Assembly (NCBI RefSeq): GCF_036785885.1
Contig: NC_092323.1
Span: 15,508,501-15,572,500, forward strand
Direction of reading: 5' to 3'
Length of the DNA: 64,000 nt
From: Coffea arabica
Taxonomy: Eukaryota > Streptophyta > Magnoliopsida > Gentianales > Rubiaceae
This document shows, piece by piece, positions 11,324 to 63,970 of this stretch. Below the pieces are notes generated by a model, which worked only from the letters and a program-made list of their open reading frames with translations, did no database searches and had not been told where the DNA came from. The stretch's first letter is position 1. Every line of letters starts with the position of its first letter. A program made the position numbers and the translations under genes.

Positions 11324-11362
11324 AATCCCCCCACACCTAGACAATGCTTGCCCTCAAGCATT
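11324..11362 (-). promoter_or_regulatory. 3' polypurine tract with adjoining hairpin (element B)
   Basis: On the minus strand: stem AATGCTTG, loop AGGG, stem CAAGCATT, 4 bases, then AGGTGTGGGGGGATT directly against the LTR (TGATAG). The polypurine tract is where plus-strand cDNA synthesis is expected to be primed. The hairpin is a perfect 8-bp stem. Confidence 0.8.
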
Positions 11363-12681: not shown

Positions 12682-12722
12682 CCACTCCCCCACACCTAAG
12701 ACCTACATTGTCCGCAATGTAA
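12682..12722 (-). promoter_or_regulatory. Internal polypurine tract with hairpin (element B)
   Basis: Minus strand: stem TACATTG, loop CGGA, stem CAATGTA, then 5 bases and AGGTGTGGGGGAGTGG. It has the same layout as the LTR-adjacent module at 11324-11362 but lies about 1.36 kb further inside. The equivalents in A, D, G and F are at 19899, 41943, 52699 and 63931. Confidence 0.65.
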
Positions 12723-12779
12723 CCTGGAAAAATAATTCGCAAGGGCAGAGGGAGCGAAAACTTCCCTGACTACTGAAAA

Positions 12780-19898: not shown

Positions 19899-19938
19899 AT
19901 CCCCCCCACACCTAAAATCCACATTGTTCTCAATATAG
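19899..19938 (-). promoter_or_regulatory. Internal polypurine tract with hairpin (element A)
   Basis: Minus strand: CTATATTG-AGAA-CAATGTGG, 5 bases, AGGTGTGGGGGGGAT. Compared with G/F (CTACATTG...CAATGTAG), two pairs have become G-U wobbles, so the stem would still form in RNA. It lies about 70 bases after the ORF3 stop. Confidence 0.65.
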
Positions 19939-20008
19939 AAATGACAAATGAAGTAGGAGGGGATAAGGAGAGAAACTCCCCTGACTACCGAGAGAGGGCA
20001 CCAAGACA

Positions 20009-23627: not shown

Positions 23628-23880
23628 TGTGGGAAAATCTGTATTTTTGGGAAGTAGAATATTGAGTAATAAAATCGTGTAAATTAAGAGAGATTAGTGG
23701 ACAGAAATTCTATATAACTATAACTGTAGATTAGCTGTAGAGGAGCTAAATTAGTGTAAAATCTTATTCCTAGGATTAAGGATATAATTGTGTATAGTTT
23801 CCTAATATAGGCTGAAACCTGTTGTATATATTCTTTTGGATCAATGAAATAATTATTCCCCTCATTCATTATTTTCAAGT
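23628..23880 (+). repeat. Copia 5' LTR
   Basis: It runs from TGTGGGAAAATCTG to ATTATTTTCAAGT. The final AAGT is present in both LTR copies and the right one is followed at once by the target duplication, so the LTR seems to end in GT rather than the usual CA. Confidence 0.9.
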
Positions 23881-23898
23881 TGGTCTCAGAGCTAGGTT
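23881..23898 (+). promoter_or_regulatory. Copia primer-binding site
   Basis: TGGTCTCAGAGCTAGGTT directly after the LTR. It resembles the common TGGTATCAGAGC site complementary to initiator tRNA-Met, with one difference. Confidence 0.85.
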
Positions 23899-23951
23899 TG
23901 CCTGATTTTTCCTACTTCTTGTTTTTTCACATTGTCCCCTGTCTCTTCATC

Positions 23952-26900
23952 ATGTCTGAAACATCATCAGACTCTACCATTAATCCTCCAACTACTGCCT
24001 CTTCATCCAAAAACAGAATCGAATCCTTGAAAACTGGGGTTGATTCTCACTCAATTCAGATTACTACCATTCGGCTGAATGGAGATAATTTTCTCCGATG
24101 GTCACAAGCAGTCCGGATGTATATCAGAGGTCGTGGCAAGATGGGGTATTTAACTGGTGAAACAAAGGCTCCAATATGCACGGATCCTGCTTACGCAACA
24201 TGGGACACGGAAAACTCCATGGTTATGACATGGCTTGAAAACTCAATGGAGGAAAATATCAGTTCTAACTACATGTGCTATTCAACGGCACAAGAGTTAT
24301 GGGAAAATATCAATCAGATGTACTCTGATTTGGGAAATCAGTCCCGAATTTTCGAGTTGACTCTCAAAATTGGAGATCTACGTCAAGGGGAAGACACTGT
24401 CACAAAATATTTCAATTCGCTTAAGCGAATATGGCAGGATTTGGATCTCTTCAACAGCTATGAGTGGAAATCAACAGAGGATTTTCAGCATCATAAGAAA
24501 ACTGTTGAAGACAGCCGAATCTTTAAATTTTTGGCAGGGCAAAATGTTGAATTTGATGAAGTTAGAGGGAGAATTATTGGGAGACAGCCTCTTCCTTCAA
24601 TTAGTGAGGTGTTCTCAGAGGTTAGAAGGGAGGAAAGCAGAAGAAATGTAATGCTGGGAAAGAAGGGTGCTGGAATTGCTGTTGAAGGATCGACTTTAAA
24701 GGTTGCCTCATCCTTTAAAACATCAACTTATCAGCGTAGAACGGGAGAAAAATCCAGTGAAAAATCACAGGTCTGGTGTGACTATTGTAATAAGCCTCGT
24801 CACACTCGTGACACATGCTGGAAACTGCACAGAAAACCTCCAAATTGGAAAAACAAAGGAGGAGAGAAGTCTGGACGAGGAGTTCCTACTGCTAATGGAG
24901 CTGATGCTGGCCCTTTCACCAAAGAACAAATGGAGCATCTTCTTATGCTACTGAAATCTAGTTCTACCTCATCTGACTTTCCTAATGCTTCTATGGCTCA
25001 TACAGGTATTGGATCTAAGGCTCTATTCAATTCTTTTTTGTCTAATTCCTCAACCTTTCATGCTCCATGGATCATAGACTCTGAAGCCTCAGACCATATG
25101 ACAAATTCATTTAAACTCTTCCAATCATATACACCATGTTCTGGAAATAAAAAGATCAAGGTTGCAGATGGAGGTTTCTCTCCTGTTGCTGGAAAAGGTT
25201 CAATACAGATCTCAAAAAATATTAACCTGAAATCTGTTCTTCATGTTCCAAAATTGGTCAGCAATCTTTTATCAGTTAGTAAACTAACAAAAGATTCTAA
25301 TTGTTTGGCTATTTTCGATGAATCTCATTGTGCTTTTCAGGACAAGAATTCGAGGATGACGATTGGCAGAGCTAGAATGATCAATGGCCTTTACTGTCTT
25401 GAGGATAATTCACCTAGTGCTCAAATTGTTCAAGAGTCTAGTAGTAATATTTCTGTATCAGCTTATGAACAAATAATGGTTTGGCATTACAGATTGGGCC
25501 ATCCTAGTTTTATTTATCTAAAACATTTGTTTCCTTTGCTTTTTAAGAATGTGAACCCCCTGAAACTGAAATGTGAAAGTTGTTTGCTTGCTAAAAGTCA
25601 ACGAAAATCTTATGTCCCAAGACCTTATTTACCATCAAAATCATTTTATTTGTTTCATAGTGATGTTTGGGGACCCTCAAGGGTTACTACTGTTTCGGGA
25701 AAAAGGTGGTTTGTAACGTTCATAGACGACCATACTCGTCTATGTTAGGTATACTTAATGCATAAGAAGTCAGAAGTAGCAACCACTTTTCAAAATTTCT
25801 ATAACATGATAGAAAATCAATTTCAAACAAAAGCAAGTATTTTGCGATCTGATAATGGAACAGAGTACTATAATAGTATCCTTGGAACATTTTTTGAAGA
25901 AAAAGGGATCTTACATCAGTCTTCTTGCACTGATACCCCTGAACAAAATGGGATTGCCGAGCGTAAAAACAAACATCTGTTGGAAGTCGCTCGTGCCATG
26001 ATATTTTATATGAACTTACCAAAATATTTTTGGGGGGATGCTGTTTTAACAGCATCATACCTAATTAATAGGATGCCTTCCAAGGTCTTACAATATAGTA
26101 CTCCTTTAGAGTGTTTTAAAAAAATTTTCCCTGAATCAAGAGTTAATTCAGATTTGCCTTTAAAAATATTTGGATGCACTGCTTATGTGTATATTCCAAA
26201 GAAACCTCGGTCCAAGTTGGATCCTAGGGCCGAAAAATGTGTCTTTGTTGGTTATGCTCCAAATCAAAAAGGGTACAAATTCTTTAATCCTCTCACACAG
26301 AAAGTCTTTGTCACTATGGATGCAACTTTTTTGAAAGGTCTTCATTTCTTTAACAAACCTTTGATTCAGGGGGAGAATTCTAGTGAATCAAATTTTTGGG
26401 AAACTGAAGCTTTACCAACTATAATTTTTGAAACAGATAAGGAAACGAAGATCCCTCAATTTGATAGTGCAGAAACTGATATTGATTTATCAGATATGGA
26501 AATATTACGATGAGAAAAAAATTGTTCCAATCTTGAGCCTGTGGTATACACTAGGAGAAATATTTTTAAAAAGGGTGAAGGTCCATTGATGAGTTCAGCT
26601 CCTGTTCATGAGAAGTCCTCGAGGGAAGTCTGTCCAAATACATCAGGTAATACTTCACCTTTCTTTTCTTCTGCTGTTCCAGAATCTGACCCAGTTTTAA
26701 ACCTTCCTACTCAAGAATCTGATCTTGATCTTCCCATTGCCATTAGGAAAGGAACCCGTACTTGCACTAGACATTCAATTTCCAAATATGTGTCCTATGA
26801 TAACCTTTCCCCTAAATATAGAGCCTTTACCACTGAAATTTCAAAACTTATGATTCCTAGAAACATTAAAGAAGCGTTGGATGATCAGAACTGGAAATCT

Positions 26901-28393
26901 GCAGTGTTTGAAGAGATGGAAGCATTGAGGAAGAATGATACATGGGATGTGGTGGAGTTGCCTAGGGAGAAAAAGATTGTTGGGTGCAAATGGGTGTTTA
27001 CAGTTAAAAGCAAAGCAGATGGTACTGTAGAAAGGTACAAGGCCAGGTTAGTTGCGAAGGGTTTTACACAAACCCATGGAATAGATTATCAAGAAACATT
27101 TGCCCCTGTTGCCAAGATAAATTCTATTCGGGTCCTTTTATCTCTTGCTATTAATGCAAATTGGCCATTGTACCAACTTGATGTGAAAAATGCCTTTCTT
27201 AATGGAGACCTAGAAGAGGAGGTGTTTATGAGTCTTCCTCCAGGTTTTGTGGACAAATATGGTGTTGGAAAAGTTTGCAAACTGAAGAAATCTCTTTATG
27301 GACTTAAACAATCACCAAGAGCTTGGTTTGAACGCTTCAGCAAAGCTGTTAAAAAATTTGGTTTCTTACAAAGTCAGGCTGACCATACTTTGTTTTATAG
27401 GCATTCAAAAGAAGGTAAAGTTGCAATTTTAATTGTATACGTCGATGACATTATTTTAACAGGGGATGATTGTGGAGGATTAGAAAATTCAAAGAAGTTT
27501 CTGGCCAAGGAATTCGAAATCAAGGACTTGGGAAACTTAAAGTACTTTCTCGGGATGGAGTTTGCACGATCCAAGGAGGGAATTGTTGTAAGTCAAAAGA
27601 AGTATGTGCTTGATTTCTCAAAGAGACAGGTATGATGGGATGCATGCCAGCTGAAACTCCCATGGAGCCAAATTTGAAACTTCAACCAGCTAGTGTAGAG
27701 AAAGTAAGAGACAGAGAAAAGTTTCAAAAACGAGTTGGAAGACTTATTTATTTATCACACACTCGGCCTAACATAGCATTTCCAGTAAGTATTGTTAGTC
27801 AGTTCATGCATTCACCAGGCCCAGAGCACTTTGAAGCAATTCATAGAATCCTAAGGTACCTAAAGGGAACACCTGGCAAAGGTATTTTCTTTAAGGCACG
27901 AGGATATCTTCAAGTTGAAGCCTATACCGATGCAGATTAGGCTGGATGTATAACAGATAGAAGATCAACTTCTGGGTATTGTACGTATGTGGGAGGTAAT
28001 TTGGTAACTTGGAGAAGTAAGAAGCAGAATGTTGTGGCAAGGAGCAGTGCAGAAGCCGAGTTCCGGGCTGTTGCTCAAGGTATTTGTGAAGTGATATGGA
28101 TTAGAAGAATATTACAGGAGTTGAAGGTTTCAGAAATACTTCCTATGAAATTGCATTGTGACAATAAAGCGGCTAATTCTATTGCTCACAATCCAGTTCT
28201 TCATGACCGAACGAAACATGTTGAAGTAGATAAGCACTTCATCAAAGAAAAAATAGAAGGAGGTGTAGTCTGCATGACCTATGTGCCAACTAGAGACCAA
28301 GTGGCAGATCTGCTTACAAAGAGTCTTCCCAAAAAACAGTTTGATTTGTTAGTGAGCAAGCTGGTGATGAAAGATATCTTCAAACCAGCTTGA
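23952..28393 (+). pseudogene. gag-pol: Copia gag-pol polyprotein, broken
   Basis: The start is taken at MSETSSD (23952). Order: gag (WSQAVRMYIRGRG region); CCHC knuckle CDYCNKPRHTRDTC (about 24777-24820); protease, where the active-site triplet reads Asp-Ser-Glu (IDSEASDHM, Glu codon 25083-25085) instead of Asp-Ser-Gly; integrase with the HHCC finger (HYRLGHP ... CESCLLAK) and D-D-E (HSDVWGP, LRSDNGTE, EQNGIAERKN); RT with YVDDIILTGDD; RNase H to the end (KLHCDNKAANSIA). Lesions: TAG 25746-25748 and TAG 27938-27940 where relatives have Trp, TGA 26511-26513 (a likely Arg CGA), and a one-base shift near 27615-27622. The stops fit C-to-T changes on one strand or the other. Confidence 0.93.
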
Positions 28394-28400
28394 GGGGGAG
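28391..28400 (+). promoter_or_regulatory. Copia polypurine tract
   Basis: TGAGGGGGAG immediately before the 3' LTR; it overlaps the polyprotein stop codon (TGA at 28391-28393). Confidence 0.85.
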
Positions 28401-28653
28401 TGTGGGAAAATCTGTATTTTTGGGAAGTAGAATATTGAGTAATAAAATAATGTAAATTAGGAGAGATTAGTGGAGAGAAATTCTATATAACTATAACTGT
28501 AGATTAGCTGTAGAGGAGCTAAATTAGTGTAAAATCTTATTCCTAGGATTAAGGATATAATTGTGTATAGTTTCCTAATATAGGCTGAAACCTGTTGTAT
28601 ATATTCTTTTGGATCAATGAAATAATTATTCCCCTCATTCATTATTTTCAAGT
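28401..28653 (+). repeat. Copia 3' LTR
   Basis: 253 bp, same length as the 5' LTR with 4 substitutions, all in its first 75 bases; followed by ACTCA. Confidence 0.95.
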
Positions 28654-32287: not shown

Positions 32288-35200
32288 CTACACTTGTCTC
32301 AGCCTAACACGTCTAATTGATGGCAATCCCAATCTGTTTAACCTAACCTCCCCCCGAGCCAACACGGGAAGATCCAGCTCACTATCATAAACTCTAACCA
32401 ACTGTTGCGAATGAGAGACACCCACGTTGGACAAAATATCAGCAACCTTATTCGCCTCTCTGTAGCAGTGCACGAACCTAGCCTCCCCTACCAAGTGCCA
32501 AATTTGCTCCACTTCTCTCCTAATGTGCCAGGGGCAGTGATAGCGTCGTTTGAGGATTTCCGTTAGCAACAACGAATCAGACTGAATCACTCTGGGGCCA
32601 ACTCCCTTTCCAAGACACAGCTGAATCCCCAATAAGGCGGCCAGCGTTTCAGCGCGAAGACTAGAACCCTCACCCAGGTAAGCCGAAAAAGCCACTAATA
32701 CATGGCCACCGGAATCCCTAAGCACTCCACCTCCACCGCTCACTCCAGGGTTACCCTTAGCACAACCATCCGTATTAAGCGTCGTGCATCCATATCCCCC
32801 TGCCTCCCAGCGGACTATCTTGCACTCATACAAATACGGCGCTTGAGACACTCCCGTATAGAATACCTGGAAATTACTCCCTTGAACGGCCACCTTGAAA
32901 TGGATCTCAAATGCCGCCTTCACATCCTGGAATACTGCACCACATATCTCCTTCGCCCGAACCCTTGCCCCATCGAACACCACTCGACACCTAGCCTTCC
33001 AGATGTTCCAACAAATAAATATCGGGGTAACAGAACAGATGAATCTCTGCTCGCCCGACGGAGCCAATGACATCCACCAGGCAAACAAATGTGACCTAAT
33101 GCTAGAGCTATCACTAGCTATACGACATATACTCTGGAAGTAATTCCAGACCTCCAGTGCCAATTGTCCCGTGGAGAATACATGTTCCAGCGTCTCACCC
33201 GTTGCATCCACACAACAAAAACATTTTGACGCCAACTTGAAACCCATCTCACCTAGAACATTATCTAACGGTAAGCGCCGCATAAGCAAGCGTAGCATGA
33301 AAAAAGATACCTTCAACGGTATCCTAGCCTGCCATATACGGGACAGCACCAGCGAGCTAGTGCGTCCCTGCCTTTCCTCCTGATACGCAGATGCCAAAGT
33401 GAATGCCCCCGACTTCGTAGGCATCCATACCACTTGGTCTGTCCCCCTCCCACTTGGAACCGGAGTTTTCATCACCAAATCCACAATGCCTGATGGAAGA
33501 ATCTGCAACAAACGTCCCCTGTCCCAGGCACCATTGGTCATAACATCTGCAAATGAACTGGCTGGCACCACTGGGGCTCTAAGGAAAAGACCTCCACTCC
33601 CCACCCAGTTGTCATACCAAAAGTCACAGCCCCCACCATTTAACAACTATAACATTGATAGTTCCATCTGGCGGCTCACATCAAGCATGCGCCTCCATGT
33701 TGCTGAAGCAGATTGAGCCCAGCCCACCTGACATGGGTGAACCCCTTTGCAATACTTTGCCCTCATGAAGGATACCCACAAAGACGATCCTGTGCGCAAG
33801 ATCCACCATAACTTACATGAGAAAGCCTTATATACGTCTCGGACCCGCCGAAATCCCGCGCCTCCCTCCTCCTCCGGATAACACAGCTGGGACCACTTTA
33901 TCCAATGATGCTTATTCAGCTCGCCAGACGATCCCCACAGGAAACTAGCGCATACCCGCTCAATAGCCTTAAAAACAGCCATCGGAATGACCGCAGCGGA
34001 TAGAAGATGCGTCGGAATTGCCGAGAGCACATGCTTTATTAGCACTAACCTCCCCCCAGGTGACAAAAGCTTTGACCGCCAAGAAAGGATTCTTGCTGAG
34101 ATGGAATGACACACCTCCCCAAAATACGCGGATTTACATCTGCCAACATAAAGCGGAAACCCCAGATACCGAACCGGGAACTGTTGCCTTGGAAAACCTG
34201 TAATACGCTCTATTACCCTTCGGCGAGAGAGACACACTGATGGGTGCACTAAATATCCACTTTTCTGGGCATTTACCAATTGACCAGATGCCCTTTGATA
34301 CATCTCCAACACCTGTACAATGTCTTTTAAAGATCTGGCAGAGCCATTCGCAAATATAAGTACATCATCCGCAAAGGCTAGGTGAGTAACCGGAGGACAT
34401 CCCCTGGGAACAGTGAACCCCAAGAATCCCGACTGCTAAGCTAGGCTATTAAGCCCTCGGGATAAGACCTCAGCTCCAATGACAAATAACGCTGGCGATA
34501 GCGGATCGCCCTGGCGGACGCCCCGACTCGATTTGAAAAATCCATACGATGCCCCATTGATAATGACTGAAAACCAAACGTTAGACAACAATCGCCACAC
34601 CATGTCAATAAACCTTTCACCAAATCCAAACTTACGCAAAACGTTTACAGTGAAAGTCCAAGACACACGATCATACGCTTTTGCCATGTCAAGCTTTACC
34701 GCTACATTACCCCCCCTAGACTTGTGTCTGATCCCCGACAGAAGCTCCTGGGCTAGGAGATAATTCTCTGTGATGTTTCTGCCCTTGACGAACCCTGTCT
34801 GCTGAGGAGATATAACCTTGGGCAGTATGGCTGCCAACCGATCAGCCAAAATCCTAGACAACACCTTATTGAAAAAATTACACAAACTAATCGGACGAAA
34901 TTTAGAAAAATCCTGAGGGTTAGGCACTTTGGGAATTAGGACAATGGATGTAGAGGTCACAAAGGGAGGCAACTCTGCCCCACAAAAGAAGCTTAAAACA
35001 GCAGTATAAACATCTTGCGCAATAATGTCCCATGCAAATGTAAAAAACTGACCGGTGAAGCCATCTGGGCCTGCTGCACTATCCCCATCCATCTCAAACA
35101 CCACCCGTTTCACCTCTTCAATCGTTGGACAAGCTTCAAGAGCCATCCTATCTGCCTGGGTAACAACATTTGGAATTAGATGGGCCCACTCTCTCGAAGT

Positions 35201-36424
35201 CCCCTCAACAGCAACCGAGAACATGTCCGTAAAGTATCTTACAGCCACAGCTGCTATCCCCTCATCATCCTCTACCCATGCACCATTCTCATTCTTCACT
35301 CTGTGGATCGCCCCCTGAGCTCTACGTTGCTGAACAGTTGCATGGAAAAATCTAGAATTCCTATCTCCGAAACGAAGCCACTTGACTCTAGCCTTCTGTC
35401 CCCAAAACTTCTCCTCATTCAAAAGTGCATTCCGTAGCTCAGCCTGGGCTTGATTCAGCTCGACCTGAGCCTCCGTAGAGGCATCCACCTCCGTGCGGTT
35501 CTCCGCAGCTAAAACCTTCTCCTCTGCCCTCCGAACATTCTCAAATACATTCCCAAGGACCCCCTTATTCCAATCTTGAATGGCCCTCCTAGTGCACAGG
35601 AGCCTGGAGCAAAGAGCCCGCAAAGGTGCTCCAGGAGTCTCCTCCTGCCAGGCTTGACGAATTACATTCAGTAACCCAGGATTCGTCGTCCAAATGTTTA
35701 GGAAACGGAAGGCCCTGGGTTTATTACCCATGCGCGAAGAGAGTGAAATCTTGAGCGGCGCATGATCCGATGGGTGACGTGCCAGGTGGACCACCGCTAA
35801 TGTTGGTGCTCCCTCAGCAAACCCACCATTGACGAGTACCCTGTCCAATCGCTTCCAGATTCTAGCCCGTCCTTGCCGATTATTGCACCAAGTGAAACTA
35901 GCCCCAGAGAAACCCGCATCAAAGACTTCGGCCTCCTCCATAAAGGATAGTAATTCCAATCCTTCAGAAGTAGTGAAAGGCCGACCTCCACGCTTCTCAA
36001 TAGGATCCCCAATGACGTTAAAATCCCCACACACACACCATGCCATTGAATCAGGTTTATCCACCAATAAGTCCTGCCACATAGTCCTCCGCTCCTCCAA
36101 GGTGCATTTAGCGTGCACAAAGGAAAAACACAAGGGCCGGGTCAGCCAAGGATGCTGGACAGATATCGTTATGTGCTGTGAAGAATTACCAAGTACAGCA
36201 CACACTATGGGGGTATTATAAAATACCCATATATCAGTCGATGAATTCACTACGACCGAATCAAAGGGTAACCTTATCTTAATCGAGTCAATTTGAGAAA
36301 CATCCATTTTTGGCTCACATATAGCAACAAACTTAAAATCATGCAACCGAATCAATCTTATCAATCGGCGCAAGTTAGGGGGTTTGGCAACCCCTCGTAT
36401 GTTCCAAAACAGACCATTAATCAT
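32288..36424 (-). pseudogene. LINE ORF2: endonuclease, reverse transcriptase, zinc finger, RNase H
   Basis: It starts at MINGLFWNIRG. The apurinic-type endonuclease shows NIRG, CEPKMD, GDFN and HPSDHAPL. RT follows with FRPISLCNFFNKVLSRILADR, VKLDMAKAYDRVSW, GVRQGDPLSP and the catalytic AFADDVLIF. Then come a zf-RVT-type segment (RIWQARIPLKVSFFMLRLLM) and a C-terminal RNase H (LNTDGCAKGNPG, LRAETLAALLGI, QSDSLLL, REANKVADILS). Two in-frame TAG codons, at 34436-34438 within RT and 33647-33649 after it, interrupt an otherwise continuous frame. Intact, it would nick target DNA and copy LINE RNA there. Confidence 0.92.
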
Positions 36425-37889
36425 GTGATAATCTTTGGAGAGCATTGTGAGAGTGTGTTACCGTCGATCGAAGTTGTCGATCGGATGGGACCAGACCTTT
36501 CTTTCTCGCCCGCTTACCACCATTGTCCATCACCCTGGATTGATCAATATGTAACCGGAGTAAAGTGTCCTCCCTACTCGAGCCGTCACCGACACCTCTC
36601 GCATCCTCTTGCTCCGTTGCCTCCTCATCCTCCCCCTCACTCACTGAACCTCTACTCCCACACAAAGGCAGATGCACCGTAATCTCCCCCACTGCTTGCA
36701 TTACCTCTGCCACCGCATCATCCTTGCTAGATAAAATCTGTCCATCATCCACAGCCAGCAGAGCGCGCGTAGCAGTCTGCACATGCTGGCCACACCGCTT
36801 GGCCTTGCTACCACCGCCATCTACTCCCTCCTCCTGGGCAGTTTGCTGCCCATCAGCCGACCTGCCACCCGGAAGGCAGACAACCGGCCTTCCTTCGGCA
36901 ACCAGGCCCTGCCCAGCCGCAAACTGCACAAATGCGTCCACCATTTGCACTCCACTACCGCTCGTTGAGTCCTCTGCCGTATCCTTGATCTCTATCAGCT
37001 TATTTCCACTTGGTGGCTCCGGCCTTCCTGCTGTGACCAACCCATGCTCAACCGTGCGCTGCACAAGTGCGGCCGAACCCACCACCCGCACATCACTGCT
37101 GCTAGTTAAGGCCTCCGCCGTATCCTTGGTCTCTGTCAAGTTATTTCCATTTGGAGGTTCCGCTGCATTAAGCGTGCTGGTATTGCCTGGTAACTCCGCT
37201 GTATGCTCCTTGGTGATATCTCGCTCCTTGACCCGATAAGCCTGTCGTGAATCCCTCATCCCATGCTGCTGCAGATTGGTCCTCTTCTCACCAACAGGTT
37301 TCAGAGTTGGGTTTTTCTTAAAACACTCCTCCTCCTTATGGCCAACCCGGTCACAGTAGTGACAGAACAAAGGCCAGTTTTCCACTTCCACCGGCTGCCA
37401 AAAACCATAGTCATCATCACCTATCCAGACTCTATTCGCCGGCTCCTTAGAAACATCCATCTCCACCAATACCCTGGCTACAGATGGTCTGCGCTGCGTG
37501 GATGTTGCAGAATCGATTTTGAGGACTCTTCCCAGCGTGGCCGCAAGTTTGGTAACCAGATTCTTTGCAAAGAAAAAGATCGGCAAGCCCGGAAAAGCTA
37601 CCCATATCGGAACTATGGAAGGCTCCTGATTGGTCTTGAAATCGATGGTCCACTTCGAGACCACCATTGGAGCGTTACTGACGAACCAGACCCTACGCAA
37701 GAAGAGCCTGGTGTAGTCCTCCTCAAGAGCAGGCCGAATCAGAATGTGCCGCTGATCCAGCAGCCCCACATCGCATTCTCCCTTGAGACCCAGTGACACG
37801 AAAAATTTCCGCACAACCTCCATTGAAGGTCTGGCTGCAGCAAATCTCCCTACCAGTGCGTTCCGGTATGGTGCCGCCAGAGCACACAT
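36417..37889 (-). CDS. LINE ORF1 (nucleic-acid-binding, DUF4283 type)
   Basis: 490 codons. The N-terminal part matches the plant LINE ORF1 pattern (NALVGRFAAARPSMEVVRKF, then LLDQRHILIRPALEEDYTRL and VARVLVEMDVSK). A CCHC knuckle CHYCDRVGHKEEEC is at about residues 182-195. A long hydrophilic Ser/Thr/Glu-rich tail follows. The methionine used is probably internal: in the same frame upstream a plausible continuation (FTLSGEPSLRLSRQD) meets a stop, and another frame continues it, so the true N-terminus is likely lost to a shift. Its last codons overlap the ORF2 start (ATGATTAA). Confidence 0.82.
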   Translation of the reverse strand: MCALAAPYRNALVGRFAAARPSMEVVRKFFVSLGLKGECDVGLLDQRHILIRPALEEDYTRLFLRRVWFVSNAPMVVSKWTIDFKTNQEPSIVPIWVAFPGLPIFFFAKNLVTKLAATLGRVLKIDSATSTQRRPSVARVLVEMDVSKEPANRVWIGDDDYGFWQPVEVENWPLFCHYCDRVGHKEEECFKKNPTLKPVGEKRTNLQQHGMRDSRQAYRVKERDITKEHTAELPGNTSTLNAAEPPNGNNLTETKDTAEALTSSSDVRVVGSAALVQRTVEHGLVTAGRPEPPSGNKLIEIKDTAEDSTSGSGVQMVDAFVQFAAGQGLVAEGRPVVCLPGGRSADGQQTAQEEGVDGGGSKAKRCGQHVQTATRALLAVDDGQILSSKDDAVAEVMQAVGEITVHLPLCGSRGSVSEGEDEEATEQEDARGVGDGSSREDTLLRLHIDQSRVMDNGGKRARKKGLVPSDRQLRSTVTHSHNALQRLSHD

Positions 37890-40940: not shown

Positions 40941-40979
40941 ATTCCCCCCACACCTGAACCATGCTTGCCCTCAAGCATG
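40941..40979 (-). promoter_or_regulatory. 3' polypurine tract with hairpin (element D)
   Basis: Minus strand CATGCTTG-AGGG-CAAGCATG, 4 bases, AGGTGTGGGGGGAAT, then TGATAG. Compared with A, B and G (AATGCTTG...CAAGCATT), the closing pair changed from A-T to C-G, keeping the stem. Confidence 0.8.
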
Positions 40980-41942
40980 AGAACAACAATTGAACACCGA
41001 AATTCAATAATGGCTATTGCTCTAACTATCATATTACCAAGATACCCAGAAAAACATATATCAAGCATCACAGTTAAGATCCAAGAAAGACCACTCCGGT
41101 TAGCTTTCCAACCACCAACTTCTCCAATTTAAAACAAACTAATCTAAGAAAAAGGAATGGTTGCTCACATTAATCCGCAAATGGTCCAACTATTAACCAA
41201 AATCTCGACATTAAGATCACAAACCGGCAAGCTGACTTATTCACATACTAACACAATCTTTATTTTATTTTTTCCCTTTTTTTTTTTTTTTTTTTTTTAG
41301 TAACAAAAGACTTAGTCTATAGCCCTTAGAGCCTTTTGACGCGAACTCCAACATTTGATAGATGGAGGAGCCCGGTTACTCAGCTCCAATCGCTACAGGA
41401 CCACGCACTCATAGCAATTACTACCTTTTAACGAGAAAATCGACACTTTAGGTGAAGATCCCCGGTTACTCAGTAGTAACTACTAGCGGAGTACAGTCAA
41501 CTCTTATTTATAACCAAATAACACAATATCTAAAAACAACACATGAATAACAGCAGCCAGCCTCAAATTTCCAAACATGAAGAACTAGAATTAATAATTG
41601 GACCAATTCACAAGAAAAATGCCAATAATCATTCCCTATGCCTAGAAAAGTTAACTAAAAATTAGAAAAGTCAAGCAATTATTGAGATTCACCAAAAAGA
41701 TGTTCCTGAACTCAACCACATCAACTCGATACCTTTTATTAATAAACTTGGCAACATCAGAATCAGAGACAACAATCCAACATCAAAACTTGGTATTCAT
41801 ATGAAGACTGACCACTAGAAAAAAGAAAAGAAAAGCAAATAAACGAAAGATGGACAAAAAACAAACTAAAAAAAAAAAAAAAAAAGAAAAAAGTAAAACA
41901 AAAGACTCCAGAAACTAAAAACAAAATTACTATCACCACAAT
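40980..41942 (-). other. Element D 3' untranslated region
   Basis: Non-coding, with a long T-run near 41277-41300 and a repeated phrase CCCGGTTACTCAG (41371 and 41460). No palindrome of the A/B type seen here. Confidence 0.65.
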
Positions 41943-41983
41943 GATTCCCCCCCACACCTAATTCACACATTGCCCTCAATGTG
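41943..41983 (-). promoter_or_regulatory. Internal polypurine tract with hairpin (element D)
   Basis: Minus strand CACATTG-AGGG-CAATGTG, 6 bases, AGGTGTGGGGGGGAATC. In G and F the matching stem is TACATTG/CAATGTA, so a T-A pair has changed to C-G with pairing kept. Confidence 0.65.
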
Positions 41984-46741: not shown

Positions 46742-46834
46742 AGTCCCTACTCCAGCACTTGAAATTGGATTTTGGTCATTTTAACTGGCGATTAGGTTTA
46801 ATTTTATTATTGTACAGGTTTCGACACCCTGTTA
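46742..46834 (+). repeat. Solo LTR E, right part
   Basis: AGTCCCTACTCCAGCACTTG then TTATTATTGTACAGGTTTCG and an end in CCCTGTTA (from CTGTCA). It is followed by GTACG, matching the GTGCG before 30811 except for one base. Comparison with F suggests about 260 bases of the LTR between the left and right parts are missing. Confidence 0.8.
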
Positions 46835-49138
46835 GTACGTTTTCACCACCTAACTCGAAAGTTTCCTGTACAAGAGACTCAATAACAATCAAAGCAAAGA
46901 CTGAGTTAGAACCCTCTCGATACTTCATCGTCTCAAAAATATTAAAATGCACCCTTTCACCATCAAATTTCATTGATAAAGTACCCTCATTCACATCTAT
47001 CTTAGTTCTGGTAGTGCTAAAAAACGGTCTACCTAACAAAATAGGCGACGGATTTAACGACTTTTCATCTCCCATGTTCAGGATATAAAAGTCTGCAGGA
47101 AAGACTAATTCATTTACCTGAATTAAGACATCCTCAACTAGCCCTTCTGAGTAGGCGTTAGTGCGATCGGCTAGTTGGATTATGATGGCCGTTTCTTTTA
47201 GTGGCCCTAGATTTAGGGACGTATAAATAGTTTTTTGCATTACATTGATTGACGCCCCTAAATTCAACATGGCCTTCCTGATCGGCGTATTTCCAATCTT
47301 ATAAGGGATCGTGAACATACCTGGATCCCCACATTTGGGTGGGAGTTTTCTCTGGAGCATGGCTGATACATTCTCTCCCACCGCTACTCTTTCATCTGCT
47401 CTCAACTTTCTCTTATGAGTGCACAAGTCCTTGAGAAATTTTGCATATTTCGGCACTTGCTTGATAGCTTCCAACAAAGGAATGTTGATCTCCACTTTTC
47501 TGAATACCTCAAAGATCTCTTTCTCCTTCTCCGCCTTCTTCGTCTTCTCCAACCTGCATGGAAAAGGAGGTAAGTTAGATTTAATGGGTACAGAGGGAGC
47601 AAGAGTTACCTCAGAGTTGTCACGGATGTGTCCTTCCTCTTCCTTCTCCTTCTCGATTTCATCTTCACTCATACTTTTTAAGTTCGTGGCTTTGGACCCT
47701 TCCACTTCTCTACCACTCCTCAGTGTCATGGCACTAACATTCTTGAGGTTTGTCTCGGACTGCGATGGTAATTTTTCAAAAACTTGGGACTCCAAACGAT
47801 TAATCACGGTTGCCATAGGACTTATCTGATTCTCCAGGTTTTTCATACCCACTCTAGTCTCCTGTTGGAACTGAGTGGTGCTCGTGGCTAAACTCTTGAC
47901 GATTTCCTCCAAAGAGCCTCCTGAGTTAGACGACGAAGGTTGTGGCTTTGGTTGCCACGGTTGCTGGAATTCCAGTGGACGATTTGAAAATGAATTTTGT
48001 GGCCTATTCCCATAGCTGAAATTGGGGTGATCTCTCCAACCCGGATTATATGTGTTGGAGTATGGATCGTACGGTTTACGAGGCGCGGGCACGCCTCTAG
48101 ACATGTTCACTTGTTCAACTCCATCCTCTTGCATCATAGGATATGAGTCGGTGGGGTGGCCCACATTTGTGGAGATTCCACAGACCTTTGCTTGGTGCAC
48201 GTTCCCCACAGCTAATTGCCGCACGAAAGACGTTAACTCAGTTAACTGCTGCTGAATGGACGACGTCTCTACCTCATTAACCCTACGGGTAGGGTTATTT
48301 TCACGAAAACCAAACTGTTGGGAATTTTTCGCCATCGACTCAATAAGTAGCCATGCTTCCCTTGGTGTCTTGTTCGCCAATGCTCCCCCGCTCGCAACGT
48401 CAATGATACTCCTATCCGATGACTGTAGTCCCTCATAGATATACTGGATCAACAGTTGTTCACTAATTTGATGCTGTGGACATCTAGTGCACAACTTATT
48501 GAACCTCTCCCAATAGTCGTATAGGGATTTTTCAGGGTACTGCTTAATGCCGCATATCTCTTTTCTTAGACTCGCAGCCCGGGATGCAGGGAAGAATTTT
48601 TCCAAAAATTTCTTCTTAAATTGGGCCCATGTGGTGATACTACCGGCAGGTAGATAGTATAACCAATTCTTTGCTGCATCCTTAAGGGAGAAAGGAAAAG
48701 CCCTGAGTTTGATCTGCTCCTCTGTAATGTCTGGAGACTTCATACTGGAGCATACCACATCGAACTCTTGGATGTGTTTATGGGGCTCCTCAACCGAGAG
48801 GCCATGGAATGTGGGTAGGAGGTGAATCAGCCCGACTTCAATTCGAATGAGGTATTTTCAGCCAACGTTGGAAATGTGATGCACAAGGGCTGCTGGGGCA
48901 ATTCTGGAGCAGCCAACTCCCTTAGTGTTCTTGCATTCGCCATAAGGATGTCCTCTTGGCCTAAATCACTTAAACTATCACCACTTGAATCTGATGATTC
49001 GATCTCTGAATCTAGTTCCTGAGAAGCTATGCTAGACTGCTTCTCTCTGAGTTGTCTAGTCTATTTTCTAGTTCGGCGTACAGTCTTCTTTACCTCCAGA
49101 TCGAAAATCAATTCACCTGTGCGAGAAGAACGATGCAT
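46835..49138 (-). pseudogene. gag-pro: Element A gag-protease, broken
   Basis: From ATG at 49138 (MHRSSRTGELIFD) the frame meets TAG at 49061-49063 (F has Glu, RKETRQ). It shifts near 48824-48832 where one base is missing, then stays open to the E insertion. The capsid region is recognisable (LRAFPFSLKDAAKNWLYYL). The zinc knuckle is degraded (CGISTNVGHPTDSY: the second and last Cys are Ser and Tyr). In the protease the active-site Asp has become Asn (LNLGASINVM, codon 47262-47264). This protein would neither bind RNA normally nor cleave itself. Beyond QETFEL it continues in A pol at 30810. Confidence 0.92.
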
Positions 49139-51373: not shown

Positions 51374-52627
51374 ATGCCTCCAAAAAAGGCAACAACTGCC
51401 GGGCCGTCTGGGTCCAAACCTAGTAAGCGACGAGCCCCGGTTCAACCCCCAATTCGGTCCCGTTTTGGCCTGAATAAGAGCACTATGTCTCTCGGGAAGT
51501 GGGGGGAATCGGTCGCTGACCTTACGAGGGAGCAGCGGGACCGGCTTAACAGCTTAGTGTACCGTCCCGTTGCCCCTTGTAAATGCTTCCATGCCCCAAT
51601 CCTGAACCATTTGCAGATTGCCCGAGAAGTTAAATAATTGTTCCCGGCAATAGGTTGGGAAAAGTACCTCACCATTGGTTACCCCACGTTTGAGGAGCTG
51701 TGTTGTGAATTCTACTCCGCCTTCGAGTTCTTAAAAAATGAATTCATCACTTTGGATGAGGAGGGGACTATTCACTTTAGATTAAGGGGCACACAGTATA
51801 GTATGTCCATTAATGAATTTAATCTGACTTTGGGGTTTGTTAGTGAAGATACCATTGCATCTGGGGCATATATAAACAGTGCGTGTGACTACACCAGACC
51901 GTTTTCTACGGATTACATTGACATTTGGAGGGAGTGGTCCACGGATCGTCAACTTTACAATCCGAGTCAGTCCAAGGCCTCTCATCTAAAGGATCCTGTT
52001 TTGAAGGCCATCCATCGGCTTTTGGCGCACAATTTCTCGGGCCTGAAGGATTCCTCCGGCACTCTCATCAAGGCGGAGTTTTATTTTCTTTGGTGCATGT
52101 GCAACAAAATTCAGGTTAACTTGGGATGTTGGGTAGCCACCCAAATGCAATCGGTCATTCAAAAGCATAATAAATCGGTGATTCTGGGCTCACTCATTGC
52201 TCACTTAGCCATTCGATTGGGGTTGTTAGACCTCGACGGAGAGCACCGCTTCGCTCTGCCTCGTGAGATAGAGCCACTGGATTTGCGCAGCTTGGAGCGA
52301 ATGGGGGTTATTTTCAAAATGGGCGATGTCTATCAGTTTACGCCCCCTGGCGAGGGCGGACCACAGCCCCGGGTGCCTCCGACTGCCCCCTCCACTGACT
52401 CTCCACCCCATCCGGATCAAGCGGGCCCGTCTTCCTCTCATACTCCTCCTGTTTGGGACTCTAGCTACCAGCACTTCCAAGATTCCGCTGATGAGCTAAA
52501 CACCCAAGTGTCAAGATTAGATGGCCGTCTTGAGGCGCTCCAGGTGTTCGCCCGTATTCAGGCAGACAATCAAGCGGCCTTCTTCGCTCACATCGGATTC
52601 ACCCCGCCTCATCCTCCTCCACCTTAG
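51374..52627 (+). pseudogene. Athila-type ORF3, nearly intact (element G)
   Basis: 417 codons with a single stop, TAA at 51635-51637 (F has Gln, EQLFSAIGW). The N-terminus is basic (MPPKKATTAGPSGSKPSKRR). The body carries FEELCCEFYSAFEF, RGTQYSMSINEFNLTLGFV and then YINSACDYTRPF, and continues through WCMCNKIQVNLGCW. A Pro/Ser-rich linker, a coiled-looking DELNTQVSRLDGRLEALQVF and a TPPHPPPP end follow. No signal peptide or transmembrane segment is seen, so an envelope role is not supported. A structural or nuclear role is possible but unproven. It is the best-preserved of the three copies. Confidence 0.8.
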
Positions 52628-52698
52628 TGCCTCAGTGCCCTCTCTCGGTAGTCAGGGAAGTTTCTGTACTTATTCCCCTCCTACTTCATTTGTCATTT

Positions 52699-52738
52699 CT
52701 ACATTGGGGACAATGTAGATTTTAGGTGTGGGGGGGAT
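52699..52738 (+). promoter_or_regulatory. Internal polypurine tract with hairpin (element G)
   Basis: CTACATTG-GGGA-CAATGTAG (perfect 8-bp stem, GNRA-like loop), 5 bases, AGGTGTGGGGGGGAT. It lies about 70 bases after the ORF3 stop. Confidence 0.7.
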
Positions 52739-54006: not shown

Positions 54007-54045
54007 AATGCTTGAGGACAAGCATTATCTAGGTGTGGAGGGATT
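54007..54045 (+). promoter_or_regulatory. 3' polypurine tract with hairpin (element G)
   Basis: AATGCTTG-AGGA-CAAGCATT, 4 bases, AGGTGTGGAGGGATT, then the LTR. The LTR-adjacent counterpart of the module at 52699. Confidence 0.8.
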
Positions 54046-55832: not shown

Positions 55833-58800
55833 ATGCCTCGTTCTTCTCGTACAAACGAGTTAATTTTTGATCCAGAAGTAGAGAAGATTGCGCGCCAAAC
55901 TAGGAAAGAGACTAGACAATTCATAGAGGAGCAATCTAGCATTGCATCTCAGGGACTTGATCCTGAGGACGAATCGACAGATTCAAGTGGTGATAATTCC
56001 AGTGACTCAGGTCAAGAGAATATCCGTATGGCGAATGCAAGAACACTACGAGAGTTGGTTGCTCCGGAATTACCCCAGCAGCCTTTATGCATTACATTCC
56101 CAGTTCTAGCAGAGAATACCTCCTTCGAACTGAAGTCAGGGTTAATTCACCTCTTACCATCATTCCATGGCCTTTCGGGGGAGGAATCCCATAAACACAT
56201 TCAGGAGTTTGACGTGGTATGTTCCAGCATGAAACTCCCAAGAATCACTGAAGAGCAGATCAAACTTAGAGCTTTCCCTTTCTCCCTAAAAGATGCGGCA
56301 AAGGATTGGTTATACTACCTACCTGCAGGTAGTATTACCACATGGGCCCAACTTAAGAAGAAATTTTTGGAGAAATTCTTCCCTGCATCTCGGGCTGCTA
56401 GCCGAGAAAGGAGATTTGCAGCATTAAACAGTACCCTGGAGAATCCCTATATGACTATTGTGAGAGGTTCAATAAGTTGTGCACTAGATGCCCACAGCAT
56501 CAAATTAGTGAACAACTATTGATCCAATATTTCTATGAGGGGTTCCAGTCGTCCGATAGGAGCATCATCGATGCTGCAAGCGGGGGAGCACTGGCAAATA
56601 AGACCCCGAGGGAAGCATGGCTGCCCATTGAAGCTATGGCAGAGAATTCTCAATAATTTGGCTTCCGTGAGAGTAACCTTACCCGCAGGGTTAACGAGGT
56701 GGAGTCGACATCTATTCAGCAACAGTTGTCGGAGCTAACATCCGTTGTTCGACAATTAGCTGTGGGGAATGTGCCCCAAGTAAAGGCCTGTAGAATCTGC
56801 ACAAATATGGGCCACCCTACTAACTTTTGCCCTATGTTGCAAGAGAATGGGGCTGAACAAGTGAACATGGCTGGAGGCGTGCCTGCGCCTCGTAGGCAAT
56901 ATGATCCATACTCCAACACGTACAACCCGGGTTGGAGAGATCACCCCAATTTCAACTATGGTAATAGGCCACAAAATGCATTCTCCAATCGTCCACCAGG
57001 ATTTCAGCAACCTTGGCAACAGAAGTCTCAACCCTCGTTCTCAAGCTCAGGGAGTTCTTTGGAGGAAATTGTCAAGAGTTTGGCCATGACTACCACTCAG
57101 CTCCAGCAGGAGACTAGAACCTTAGTCGCGAGCATTACCCAGTTCCAACAGGACACCAAAGCAGGCATGAAAGACATGGAGACTCGCATGAGTCAAATGG
57201 TAACTGCCATTAATCGTCTGGAGTCCCACGTCTATGGAAAATTGCCATCGCAACCTGAGACAAACCCCAGAAATGTAAGTACAATGACATTAAGGAGTGG
57301 CAAGGAAGTGGAGGGGTCAAAGGTCACGAATTTGAAGAGTAAAAGTGAATACGAGATCGAGAAGGAGATAGAGGAAGAAGGACACATTCGTGGAGGTACT
57401 GAGATAACTCTTACACCATCAATACCCGTTAAATCTAATTTACCCCCTTTTCCATGCAGGTTGGCAAAGACAAAGAAGGCAGAGAAGGAAAAAGAGATCC
57501 TGGACGTATTCAGGAAAGTGGAGATCAACATCCCCTTGTTGGAAGCAATTAAGCAAGTGCCGAAGTACGCGAAATTTTTCAAGGATTTATGCACCCATAA
57601 GAGGAAATTGAGAGGGGATGAAAGAGTAGCGGTGGGAGAAAACGTATCGGCCATGCTCCAAAGAAAGCTCCCACCCAAGTGTGGAGATCCAGGTATGTTC
57701 ATGATCCCGTGCAAAATAGGAAATACACCAATTAGAAAAGCAATGTTAGATTTAGGGGCGTCAATTAATGTGATGCCAAAGACCATTTTTACGTCTCTAA
57801 ATCTTGGGCCACTTAAAGAAACAGCCATCATAATCCAACTAGTTGATCGCACAAATGCTTATCCAGAGGGGCTAGTTGAGGATGTTCTGGTTCAGGTAAA
57901 TGAATTAGTCTTTCCTGCAGATTTTTATATCTTGGACATGAGAGATGAAAAATCATTAAACCCGTCACCTATTTTATTAGGTAGACCGTTTCTTAGCACT
58001 GCCAGGACTAAGATAGATGTGAATGAGGGTACTTAGTCAATGGAATTTGATGGTGAAACTGTGAATTTTAATATTTTTAAGGCGATGAAGTATCCAGAGG
58101 AATCTAACTCAATTTTTGCTTTGAGTGTTATTGAGTCTCTTGTGCAGGAAACTTTCGAATTAGATGGTAAACACGCATTAGAAGTGGCCCTAACCAAGCA
58201 TCTTGAGTTAGGTGTAACTCTTGATGTGGACTTGAGGGATGAGTTACATCATGCAGTCGAAACCCTGCACTCACTTCCACCCGTATCTCCAAGGTATGAG
58301 CTTACTTCTCTTTTTGTGCCAGAGACTCAGACAAAGTTGCTTCCTTCAGTTGTGCAGGCACCGGAACTAGAACTAAAGCCTCTCCCGAAGCATCTAAAGT
58401 ACGCATTCCTAGGAGATCGGGAGACACTTCCGGTGATCATCTCTGCACATCTATCTCCAAGTCAAGAGGACAGACTGGTACGAATCCTTAGGGAGCATAA
58501 GGAGGCAATTGGGTGGAGCATAGCAGATATCAAGGGAATAAGTCCATCCTTATGCATGCACCGAATTCGGCTCGAAGAAGATGCGAAACCAGTAAGACAG
58601 GCACAACGGAGGTTGAACCCCCTGATGATGGAAGTTGTGAAAAATGAGATATTTAAACTCCTAGAGGTGGGGATCATTTTTGCTATCTTAGATAGTCCGT
58701 GGGTGAGTCCTGTCCAAGTGGTCCCAAAGAAGGCGGGAGTGACGGTAGAGGAGAACCAGGAGGGTGATATGGTCCCGGTCAGGAAAGCTACTGGCTGGCG

Positions 58801-61266
58801 TCAGTGCATCGACTACAGGAGGCTAAATTCTGTGACTAAAAAGGACCATTTTCCCATCTCTTTTATTGATCAGATGGTAGAACGATTGGCGGGTCGTGTT
58901 TACTATTGTTTCTTGGATGGCTTTTCAGGTTACTTTCAGATCACGATAGCACTAGAAGATCAGGAAAAGACTACATTCACTTGCCCATTCGGTACATTCG
59001 CTTACCGCCGGATGCCTTTCGGTCTCTGCAATACTCCAGCAACCTTTCAAAGGTGTATGGTAAGTATTTTCTCCGAATATGTAGAAAAAATTATTGAGGT
59101 GTTCATGGATGATTTTAGTGTATACGGGAATAGTTTTGATAAATGCCTTGATAATTTAGCTCTAATTTTAAAAAGATGCATAGAGACGAATTTGGTTCTT
59201 AATTGGGAGAAGTGTCACTTTATGGTAGAATATGACATTGTCTTAGGGCACGTTGTGTCGGCTGAGGGGATAGAGGTAGACAAAGGTAAAATAGATCTTA
59301 TTTTTGCTCTGCCTTACCCCGTATGTGTACGGAAAGTACGTTCCTTTTTAGGCCATACAGGATTTTACAGGAAGTTCATCAAGGATTTCTCAAAGATTGG
59401 AGCACCCCTGTTCAAGTTGCTGCAAAAGGATTGATATTTGAGTTCACTAATGAATGCAAGGTGGCTTTTGATAAATTAAAGGAGTCGTTGACATCGCTGC
59501 CTGTCATTCAACCCCCAGATTGGAGCCTTCCGTTTGAAATCATGTGCGACGCGAGTGATTATGTCGTGGGAGCCGTATTGGGGCAAAGGATAGGAAAGGC
59601 GGCACACGTGATCTACTATGCCTTGAGGGCATTGAATGGAGCCCAACTAAATTACTCCACGACGGAGAAAGAATTACTAGCTGTTGTTTTTGCACTAGAA
59701 AAATTTAGGTCATATTTACTGGGTGCAAAAGTAATTGTTTTCTCTAATCATGCAGCCTTGAGGTACCTGTTGGCGAAGAAAGATGCAAAACCGAGGCTTA
59801 TAAGGTGGATCTTGTTCCTGCAGGACTTCGACTTAGAGATCAAGGATAAGAGTGGAGTCGAGAACTTGGTGGCTGATCATTTAAGCCGGTTGCTCACGAA
59901 TAAGGAGGATCTACCGTTGAGAGAATCATTTCCTGAGAAGCAATTATTAGCTATTGACTCGTCAATACCTTGGTATGCTGATATTGTTAATTTTTTGGTA
60001 ACGAATCAATTACCTGCAGGTTGGCCAAAGGCTAAAAGAGATAAATTAAAAAGTGACGCCAAACACTATATTTGGGATGAACCGTACCTGTGGAGGCAAT
60101 GCTCGGACCAGATGATAAGAAGATTTGTAAGTGCAGGTGAGTTCCAGTCTATTTTGACTTTTTGTCATTCATTTGCATGTGGAGGGCACTTTGGGCCAAA
60201 GCGGACAGCTCGTAAAGTGTTAGAAAGTGATTTTTATTGTCCTACTCTATTTAAGGATGTATACTTGTTTTGTAAATAGTGTGACAAGTGTCAAAGGGTG
60301 GAAAATATTTCTCGTAGAGATCAAATGAGTCAAACCCCCATGTTATTCGTTGAAATTTTTGATGTTTGGGGTATAGATTTCATGGATCCCTTCCCCTCGT
60401 TTTTTGGTTTCTTGTATATTTTACTTGCTGTTGACTATGTTTCCAAATGGGTGGAGGCAAAAGCCACCCGAACTAACGATTCAAGAGTGGTTGCAGAATT
60501 TATCAAGTCTAACATTTTTGTCCGCTTTGGAATGCCAAGAGCCATAGTGAGTGACAGGGGCACCCATTTCTGCAATAGGACGATCACGGCATTGTTTCGT
60601 AAGTATGGCGTGCTCCACAAAATATCCATCTCCTACCATCCGCAGACGAATGATCAGGCCGAAGTGTCAAATAGGGAGGTCAAGTCAATTCTAGAGAAGA
60701 TGGTGCGGCCTGATAGGAAAGATTGGAGTTTGAAGTTGGAAGATGCTCTCTGGGCCTACCGCACCGCATACAAAACACCGATTGGGATGTCCTCGTACAG
60801 GTTAGTTTTTGGGAAGCCTTGCCACCTCCCGGAGGAATTTGAACACAGAGCATTCTGGGCGCTCAAGCGGTGTAACATGGACTTTATGGAGGCCGGAGGA
60901 TATAGAAAACTCCAATTACAAGAGTTGGAGGAGCTAAGAAATGAAGCCTATGAGAACACCGCAATATATAAGGAGAGGAGCAAAATTTTTCATGACCAAC
61001 CAGTTTCGAGAAAGTCATTTGTAGTAGGGCAAAAAGTCCTACTTTATCACTCGAGACTTAAGTTTTTTCCTGGTAAGTTGCGTTCCCGTTGGATTGGTCA
61101 ATTTGTTGTTTCTAATATTTTTCATTATGGTACAGTGGAAATCCAAAGTCTTAAGACAGAGAAAAAGTTCGTAGTCAATGGTCACTGTCTAAAACCTTAT
61201 TATGAAGGGTTTAATAGTGAGCAAGTGGAGGTTATATCTCTTGATGATTCAAGTTGTGAGGTCTAA
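55833..61266 (+). pseudogene. gag-pol: Athila-type gag-pol polyprotein, broken (element F)
   Basis: From MPRSSRTNELIFDP the frame runs gag, protease, RT, RNase H and integrase as one polyprotein. Landmarks: capsid LRAFPFSLKDAAKDWLYYL; CCHC knuckle CRICTNMGHPTNFC; protease LDLGASINVM with the aspartate intact; RT CIDYRRLNSV, FLDGFSGYFQI and catalytic FMDDFSVYG; RNase [15 protein letters not shown] and [11 protein letters not shown] (an Asp-to-Asn change compared with A); integrase [19 protein letters not shown] and [11 protein letters not shown]. Lesions: frameshift near 56400-56410, TAA 56654-56656 (Gln), TAG 58034-58036, a one-base loss near 59433, and TAG 60277-60279 within the integrase HHCC finger. 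Ends in DDSSCEV. Confidence 0.93.
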
Positions 61267-63859: not shown

Positions 63860-63930
63860 TGCCTCAGTGCCCTCTCTCGGTAGTTAGGGAAGTTTCTCTA
63901 CTTATTCCCCTCCTACTTCATTTGTCATTT

Positions 63931-63970
63931 CTACATTGGGGACAATGTAGATTTTAGGTGTGGGGGGGAT
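63931..63970 (+). promoter_or_regulatory. Internal polypurine tract with hairpin (element F)
   Basis: CTACATTG-GGGA-CAATGTAG, 5 bases, AGGTGTGGGGGGGAT, identical to G. The terminal module should lie beyond the window. Confidence 0.7.

Follow-up and report, generated by a model that had tools for sequence, protein, structure and literature searches.

Athila-type elements in the window

The window, meaning the whole stretch of 64,000 nucleotides that was analysed, covers positions 15508501-15572500 of one contig of Coffea arabica, whose genome (1.198 Gb) was also searched. It is filled by Athila-type LTR elements, with gag, RT/RNase H and ATHILA ORF-1 domains found by Pfam profile search, and five of them are named here (A, B, D, F and G). 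Gag together with a PF03078 third ORF in the env position places these elements in the Athila lineage. The gag is of the Ty3/gypsy type (PF03732) and was found in element B and in the frame 46776-48857, which is a sixth Athila-type gag and has no module of its own, in the sense described below, within the window. RT and RNase H are present above the cut-off at 58037-60276, where an integrase zinc domain scores just below it. The third ORF (ORF3) of element G matches ATHILA ORF-1 (PF03078, E=1.6e-9) and Transposase_32 (PF20167, E=7.1e-12), both above the cut-off, and the ORF3 piece of element F is below the cut-off for both. In element B (LTR pair 9693-11325/15738-17370, 99.4% identical) gag is accompanied by a protease match below the cut-off, and neither pol nor ORF3 was recognised; of the seven sense frames of at least 60 aa listed between gag and LTR, six gave no Pfam match. 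In element D (LTR pair 38004-40946/43803-46747, 99.6% identical) no coding region was recognised: eleven of the twelve listed sense frames of at least 50 aa gave no Pfam match above the cut-off, and the twelfth lies mostly in the LTR.

The window also holds a Ty1/copia element at 23628-28653, with short LTRs that are 98.4% identical, seemingly nested in element A, and a LINE-type remnant on the minus strand at 34439-36457, with endonuclease/exonuclease and RT domains. The string GCGTGCCCACGCC (at most two mismatches) gives 35 matches at about 25 window places against 0.29 expected, some sites matching on both strands. These sit in the LTRs, linkers and leader of Athila-type elements, at positions that include 53460, 53538, 54218, 38048, 43772, 43847, 11820, 11912, 13216, 13297, 19139, 61506 and others, and all eight exact copies are in element-sense orientation. 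By analogy with the boxes in the LTRs of Sireviruses, the string may be a repeat-motif box.

Hairpin and polypurine modules

Each module consists of a stem with a 4-base loop, a short spacer and a purine tract with the core GGTGTGGGGG. An internal copy is present in all five named elements, as an earlier note on this DNA had claimed, and with three terminal copies the window holds eight modules. A scan of the window for GGTGTGG followed by four purines returns these eight and nothing else, and AGGTGTGGGGGGGAT, with at most two mismatches, occurs at 6 window places against 0.08 expected from shuffles. The features are the following.

51638..52627, plus strand: ORF3 of element G, an open frame in the env position (stop codon 52625-52627; Pfam PF03078, PF20167)
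52653..52661, plus strand: CAGGGAAGT block 5' of the internal module, element G (from CAGGGRAGT conservation)
52662..52697, plus strand: pyrimidine-rich tract 5' of the internal stem, element G (from pyrimidine content)
52698..52719, plus strand: internal hairpin of element G, TCTACATTG(GGGA)CAATGTAGA, 9 bp
52720..52724, plus strand: T-rich spacer TTTTA between stem and tract, internal module of element G
52725..52737, plus strand: internal polypurine tract GGTGTGGGGGGGA, element G (whole module 52698-52737)
54007..54026, plus strand: terminal hairpin of element G, AATGCTTG(AGGA)CAAGCATT
54032..54043, plus strand: terminal polypurine tract GGTGTGGAGGGA, element G (3' LTR start TGATAG at 54046)
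63930..63969, plus strand: internal module of element F, with stem, spacer and tract letters identical to those of G
19900..19939, minus strand: internal module of element A, with two T.G wobbles in the stem
12684..12723, minus strand: internal module of element B
11326..11362, minus strand: terminal module of element B (LTR start 11323)
41946..41983, minus strand: internal module of element D, with the 7-bp stem CACATTG(AGGG)CAATGTG and a 7-nt spacer
40942..40980, minus strand: terminal module of element D (LTR start 40940)

The terminal module is an ordinary 3' PPT, in which the tract is followed, usually after TT, by the LTR beginning with TGATAG. From the coordinates, the internal module lies 1,307 (G), 1,004 (D) and 1,359 (B) nt from it, which bears out the 1.0-1.4 kb given earlier; distances are available for these three only, as element F runs off the window and the terminal partner of A was not seen. 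The earlier description of a 7-8 bp stem, a 4-nt loop and a spacer of about 5 bases holds for the loop, and has to be widened for the rest: internal stems are 9 bp in G, F and A, 8 in B (with one wobble) and 7 in D, with spacers of 5, 6 and 7 nt, respectively. The internal tract of B reads GGTGTGGGGGAGT, which differs from the tract quoted at that time. The core GGTGTGGGGG, whose identity between internal tract and 3' PPT would be expected of a cPPT-like second origin, is shared by both tracts of D, of B and of most sampled loci; the terminal tract of G differs by one base.

The conserved unit is larger than first reported, and includes CAGGGRAGT and a pyrimidine tract before the stem, spacer and tract. 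CAGGGRAGT was found upstream of internal modules exactly in 26 of 35 cases and with at most one mismatch in 33, and in none of 45 terminal modules; pyrimidines make up an average of 82% of the 40 nt before the stem in the same 35 and 62% in the same 45. Measured from the final base of the ORF3 stop codon, in element G the unit begins 26 bases and the tract 98 nt further on. What comes after the internal tract is TGG in 30/38 cases and, by construction of the class, never the LTR-type TGATA.

Abundance and spacing in the genome

The searches covered this genome and viral contigs. Genome-wide, the loop-spacer-tract pattern has 1,492 matches against 3 for the reversed pattern, and tract plus LTR start, with two mismatches allowed, 2,649 against 0. 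Among the matches listed (100 of 1,492), the distance from CAA to GGTG is 11 nt in 52, which are of the internal type plus one further class, and 10 (46) or 9 nt (2) in the terminal type. A listed terminal module lies within 1.5 kb on the 3' side of 24 of the 50 internal-type rows among the matches listed, and on the 5' side of none; this pairing count is a minimum, because most terminal copies with other loops are outside that list. The listed pairs fall into 15 distances at 966-1,051 nt and 9 at 1,245-1,374, and 24 of 25 paired rows among the matches listed are 966-1,374 nt from the terminal tract. Under the stem search rule of this analysis, on which the counts depend, the stem-to-tract spacer measures 4-7 nt in 74 of 82 modules, with 57 of them at 5 nt; in four it is odd, and in another four no stem was found. 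Internal and terminal copies are shown to be separate sequence classes with nearly fixed spacing.

In the viral contigs, GGACAAN{4,14}AGGTGTGGGGG matched 15 stretches; by eye the matched strings contain no complementary stem, and these matches are therefore taken as chance.

Thirty 3' ends were sampled from the odd-numbered rows among the exact terminal junctions listed (100), each with 4.5 kb upstream. In 20 of them an exact AGGTGTGGGGG lies 532-1,391 nt upstream, and one more (L082) has a degenerate copy. No internal module was found in the 4.5 kb searched in the remaining 9, namely six near-identical copies from one 1.2-Mb stretch and L054, L073 and L081. The earlier wording that every element has the module thus applies to the five named elements of the window, and not to 9/30 of the sampled genomic ends.

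The six module-less copies (L062-L066 and L068; C2, 39.86-41.02 Mb) have kept a D-like linker, starting about 816 nt before the PPT, in which the module is absent. The sequence 3' of it was compared for five of the six in one piece and for three of these in a second piece: L062 and L064 remain alike to the end of the last 3' piece, and L068 diverges after 353 bases. Their LTRs are apparently longer than those of D.

Linkers around the module

Between ORF3 and the 3' LTR, where this second PPT lies, two groups of linkers can be told apart, G/B (79% identity) and D/L016/L073 (67-75%). The two do not align with each other except for one 36-nt match (L073-B), but the module does align. Mean pairwise identity among G, D, L016 and L073, taken in steps of 20 bases, reaches 0.82 and 0.79 over -30..+10 and lies at 0.15-0.55 elsewhere. 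Element B is 87-92% identical to L060, L067, L069, L075 and L078, an identity that sets in exactly 111 nt before the internal tract on its 5' side. GGG precedes one linker start in 75 genomic copies.

Some 3' ends are mosaics (L055-L083, elements B and G), with linkers that are 90-94% identical and ORF3-side regions that are 69-71% similar, and several of the block edges are near the internal module. Between L083 and B, identity is 94-97% at -900 to -400 and 61-68% at -400 to 0, and on the 3' side 80-84% over the first 200 and 82-97% beyond.

Covariation in the stem

Covariation was assessed in genome-wide copies with a changed 3' arm, whose 5' partner was then read, giving 84 distinct internal arm pairs. 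Two of the searches behind these were listed whole (30 and 97 rows) and the third as 100 of 454 rows, with distinct strings counted once each; a 27-row search for a further internal class, also listed whole, was kept out of the 84. The terminal set consists of 100 listed of 142 matches, minus 28 rows of unrelated type. Controls with reversed patterns gave 4 (30-row), 0 (454), 5 (97-row), 1 (27-row) and 0 (142, terminal) matches. The 28 rows that matched the terminal pattern are a different repeated string, TCTACTTCTTGGACAAGATGATG..ATGGTGTGGG with variants, which is found on several contigs (e.g. C12, 29.0-29.4 Mb) and is not a hairpin-PPT module.

The outer pairs of the stem covary, and changes at inner pairs are mostly uncompensated. 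Internal pairs 7 and 8 are paired in 59/84 and 58/84 arm pairs against shuffle means of 48.8 and 46.1, values that 0/2000 shuffles reach; as the shuffles ignore relatedness, such figures are not probabilities. Terminal pair 8 covaries as well (27/30 against a shuffle mean of 16.3). No covariation was seen at pair 9 in the 84 internal arm pairs, and terminal pair 5, which is G.T or A-T in 25/30, does no better than shuffles. Internal pairs 1-4 are nearly fixed in the 84, and changes at pairs 5 and 6 mostly lack a partner change, with 14 of the 84 showing a C.A mismatch at pair 5; the set is by choice rich in changed 3' arms, which biases it against pairing at pairs 5-7. The further class (L084 type, with a linker that is G-like by eye) has CCTTG/CAAGG for CATTG/CAATG in 20/27 rows, a double change at pair 4, and in five other rows pair 4 has an uncompensated change (A against C). 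The common terminal stem ATGCTTG/CAAGCAT differs from the internal TACATTG/CAATGTA at pairs 4-7, and both stems pair there; this is a sign of structure only if the two share descent. What had been reported for the window, T-A in G and F, C-G in D and wobbles in A, is correct (pair 7 is T-A in B also) and extends to pairs 7 and 8 genome-wide. The strength of covariation that was implied does not carry over, as internal pairs 1-4 hardly vary and most changes at pairs 5 and 6 disrupt the pairing.

Predicted RNA folding

The predicted folds are ambiguous: the stem would dominate locally, but with more context the internal tract would mostly pair upstream. The mean core-pair probability is 0.88 (internal) and 0.83 (terminal) in the local 38 nt, and 0.37 and 0.36 with a context of -90..+60. 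In these predictions the tract bases pair with -90 to -19 at a mean probability of 0.79 in internal and 0.45 in terminal modules. The hairpin is part of the best predicted fold in four of the eight window modules, of which two (G and F) are the same 61 bases. No larger structure is proposed, as shuffled sequences fold about as well as the 701 nt around the G module (z 0.49). Folding z-scores of single modules are -2.10 to +0.17, so that thermodynamics alone gives the hairpin no support and the case for it consists of partial covariation and spacing.

A probable second plus-strand origin and its alternatives

Judged from sequence, the internal module probably gives Athila-type elements a second origin of plus-strand DNA (PPT2), with the same layout as the terminal 3' PPT. 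Minus-strand synthesis would copy through both modules, RNase H would spare the GGTGTGGGGGG RNA at both tracts, and plus strands would start at both. The strand from PPT2 would run 1.0-1.4 kb to the 3' LTR and displace or abut the strand from the terminal PPT. The outcome would be one extra plus-strand discontinuity, which may help to free the plus strong-stop strand; priming, displacement and any benefit are what we infer from the arrangement. As TGG and not an LTR-type TGATA follows the internal tract, a strand started there would lack an integrable end. For the hairpin, RT stalling is the favoured guess.

Of the two explanations in the earlier note, a priming site or an old duplication, the former is best supported, because the internal and terminal modules have the tract core, the hairpin context and the spacing in common and because elements B and D have retained both. 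With gag only in B and no recognised coding region in D, this retention also suggests a role in cis that is not tied to ORF3, with the caveats that B and D retain the whole 3' block, so that retention of the module is not independent of the block, and that the six-copy family has its linker but no module. That the PPT and cPPT of HIV and SIV share an RNA structure motif (PMC4439019) speaks for a second origin as well. Against it count the mostly uncompensated changes at pairs 5 and 6, the competition of the hairpin with other predicted folds, the absence of the module from 9/30 sampled ends (six of them near-identical), a position that is not central, unlike that of lentiviral cPPTs, and the fact that no central PPT is reported to have been identified in Ty3.

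An old duplication would be compatible with the second priming site rather than its rival. A different matter is a mere relic, an ancestral 3' end (hairpin and PPT) that was left behind when sequence was gained before the LTR and that has little or no present function. The common plan of the two modules, the six-copy family and three other ends that lack the internal one, and an internal tract with no LTR-type end would all suit a relic, and the C.A mismatches at pair 5, in a set enriched for such changes, look like decay. The relic is nevertheless unlikely, since the module is conserved across linkers that do not align; its nearly fixed spacing, its covarying outer pairs and its presence in elements with 99.4-99.6% identical LTRs also speak against decay. 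Recombination or template switching at the module, with hairpin stalling and shared sequence letting elements swap ORF3 regions or 3' blocks, we consider rather unlikely. When B is compared with other copies, the block that holds the module starts between -111 and -25 in 13 of 21 cases, the L083-B identity profile is a mosaic, and Marco and Marin (2008) report acquisition of env by recombination in Athila, but other block edges lie at -389, -461 or further, the edges may merely mark the end of ORF3, and in 8/21 of these comparisons the module is not covered by any single block.

The module might instead act as RNA, with the G-run in a fold, in nucleocapsid binding, packaging or dimerisation or as a 3'-end or stability signal of an ORF3 message. 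The start of the tract 98 nt after the ORF3 stop in G, the purine-rich tetraloop, the stronger predicted upstream pairing of the internal tract and the restriction of CAGGGRAGT to internal modules in the sets compared would fit such a cis element, which is quite improbable all the same: it is kept in B and D, where no ORF3 was recognised, and the identity of the tract core with the 3' PPT core is left unexplained. A 3' splice site (a pyrimidine tract and then TTTTAG/GT, where the slash marks the junction) appears extremely improbable. The Y-tract and AG are there, but the terminal module also has AG/GTGTGG, with no Y-tract, no recognised gene follows downstream, and the hairpin lies between the pyrimidine tract and the AG.

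Returning to the second origin, the hairpin may act as a ruler that measures off the primer, one device retained at both origins of an element with a different stem at each, an idea that we hold to be doubtful. RT, having just copied the tract, would stall at the stem, whose base is about 5 nt 5' of the tract, and the RNase H site about 18 bp behind would then fall near the 3' end of the tract and give the primer terminus. In the usual terminal module, 5 nt of spacer, 12 purines and 2 nt to the LTR add up to 19, which the 18-bp spacing reported for HIV RT fits to within a base. The spacing of about 13 bp reported for the Ty3 type, a closer relative, would put the cut inside the G-run and argues against the ruler. 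It has been suggested that PPT processing begins with a pause of RT at structure (PMC4439019), and the HIV/SIV motif may be taken as a partial precedent for RNA structure in that process. Lavender et al. (2015; PMC4439019), however, hold that pausing at the HIV structure would not give an exact cut, and Pollom et al. (2013) consider RNA structure as such unlikely to modulate the HIV/SIV tracts as primers; both speak against the ruler.

How RT chooses one short RNA from a whole genome as second-strand primer is still debated, and hairpins with different stems, at nearly fixed spacing before two tracts of one element family, would be natural paired tests of whether RNA structure helps to set the cut. 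If the module is a second origin, it would also give a concrete role to some of the noncoding 3' sequence in this large lineage of plant retrotransposons, and its retention may be a sign of what non-autonomous copies need.

Comparison with known systems

EVADE, a plant LTR element like Athila but of the Ty1/copia type, has central PPTs, and extra plus-strand starts were reportedly seen in its VLP DNA by Lee and colleagues in 2020.

Lentiviruses, with their central PPT, and Ty1 likewise have a second tract besides the 3' PPT (PMC2829016). Those tracts are in coding regions, and central in lentiviruses, whereas the tract described here lies in a noncoding linker, mostly 1.0-1.4 kb from the 3' PPT and away from the centre. 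In HIV the helix involves the 3' part of the tract (PMC4439019), and here the hairpin lies 5' of the tract.

A close parallel comes from Athila4 and Calypso, whose linker has an extra PPT according to Wright and Voytas (2002) as cited by Bousios et al. (2010; PMC2829016). These are env-containing elements of the Athila lineage with one extra PPT in the linker, so the extra PPT itself is not new, and the statement in the earlier note that no description was known does not hold for the tract. In the section that cites them there is no mention of a hairpin, upstream block or spacing. It also cites a 2004 proposal that such repeats take part in reverse transcription. In the literature searched, which did not extend to the original of Wright and Voytas (2002), no description of the hairpin or of paired modules was found, and the paired hairpin architecture is apparently new. 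The observation is real, conserved and partly known, and its function is what we infer.

Bousios et al. (2010; PMC2829016) also describe extra PPTs in Sireviruses, clustered near the 3' LTR and mostly after env, as here. Sireviruses are Ty1/copia elements with the octamer AGGGGGAG 10 bp before the 3' LTR and about four PPTs per linker; the coffee elements have the tract GGTGTGGGGGGA, eight modules in the window and a Ty3/gypsy-type gag. In that account an inverted repeat flanks only the terminal PPT of Sireviruses and the upstream PPTs have none, whereas in the Athila-type elements of the window a hairpin lies 5' of both tracts.
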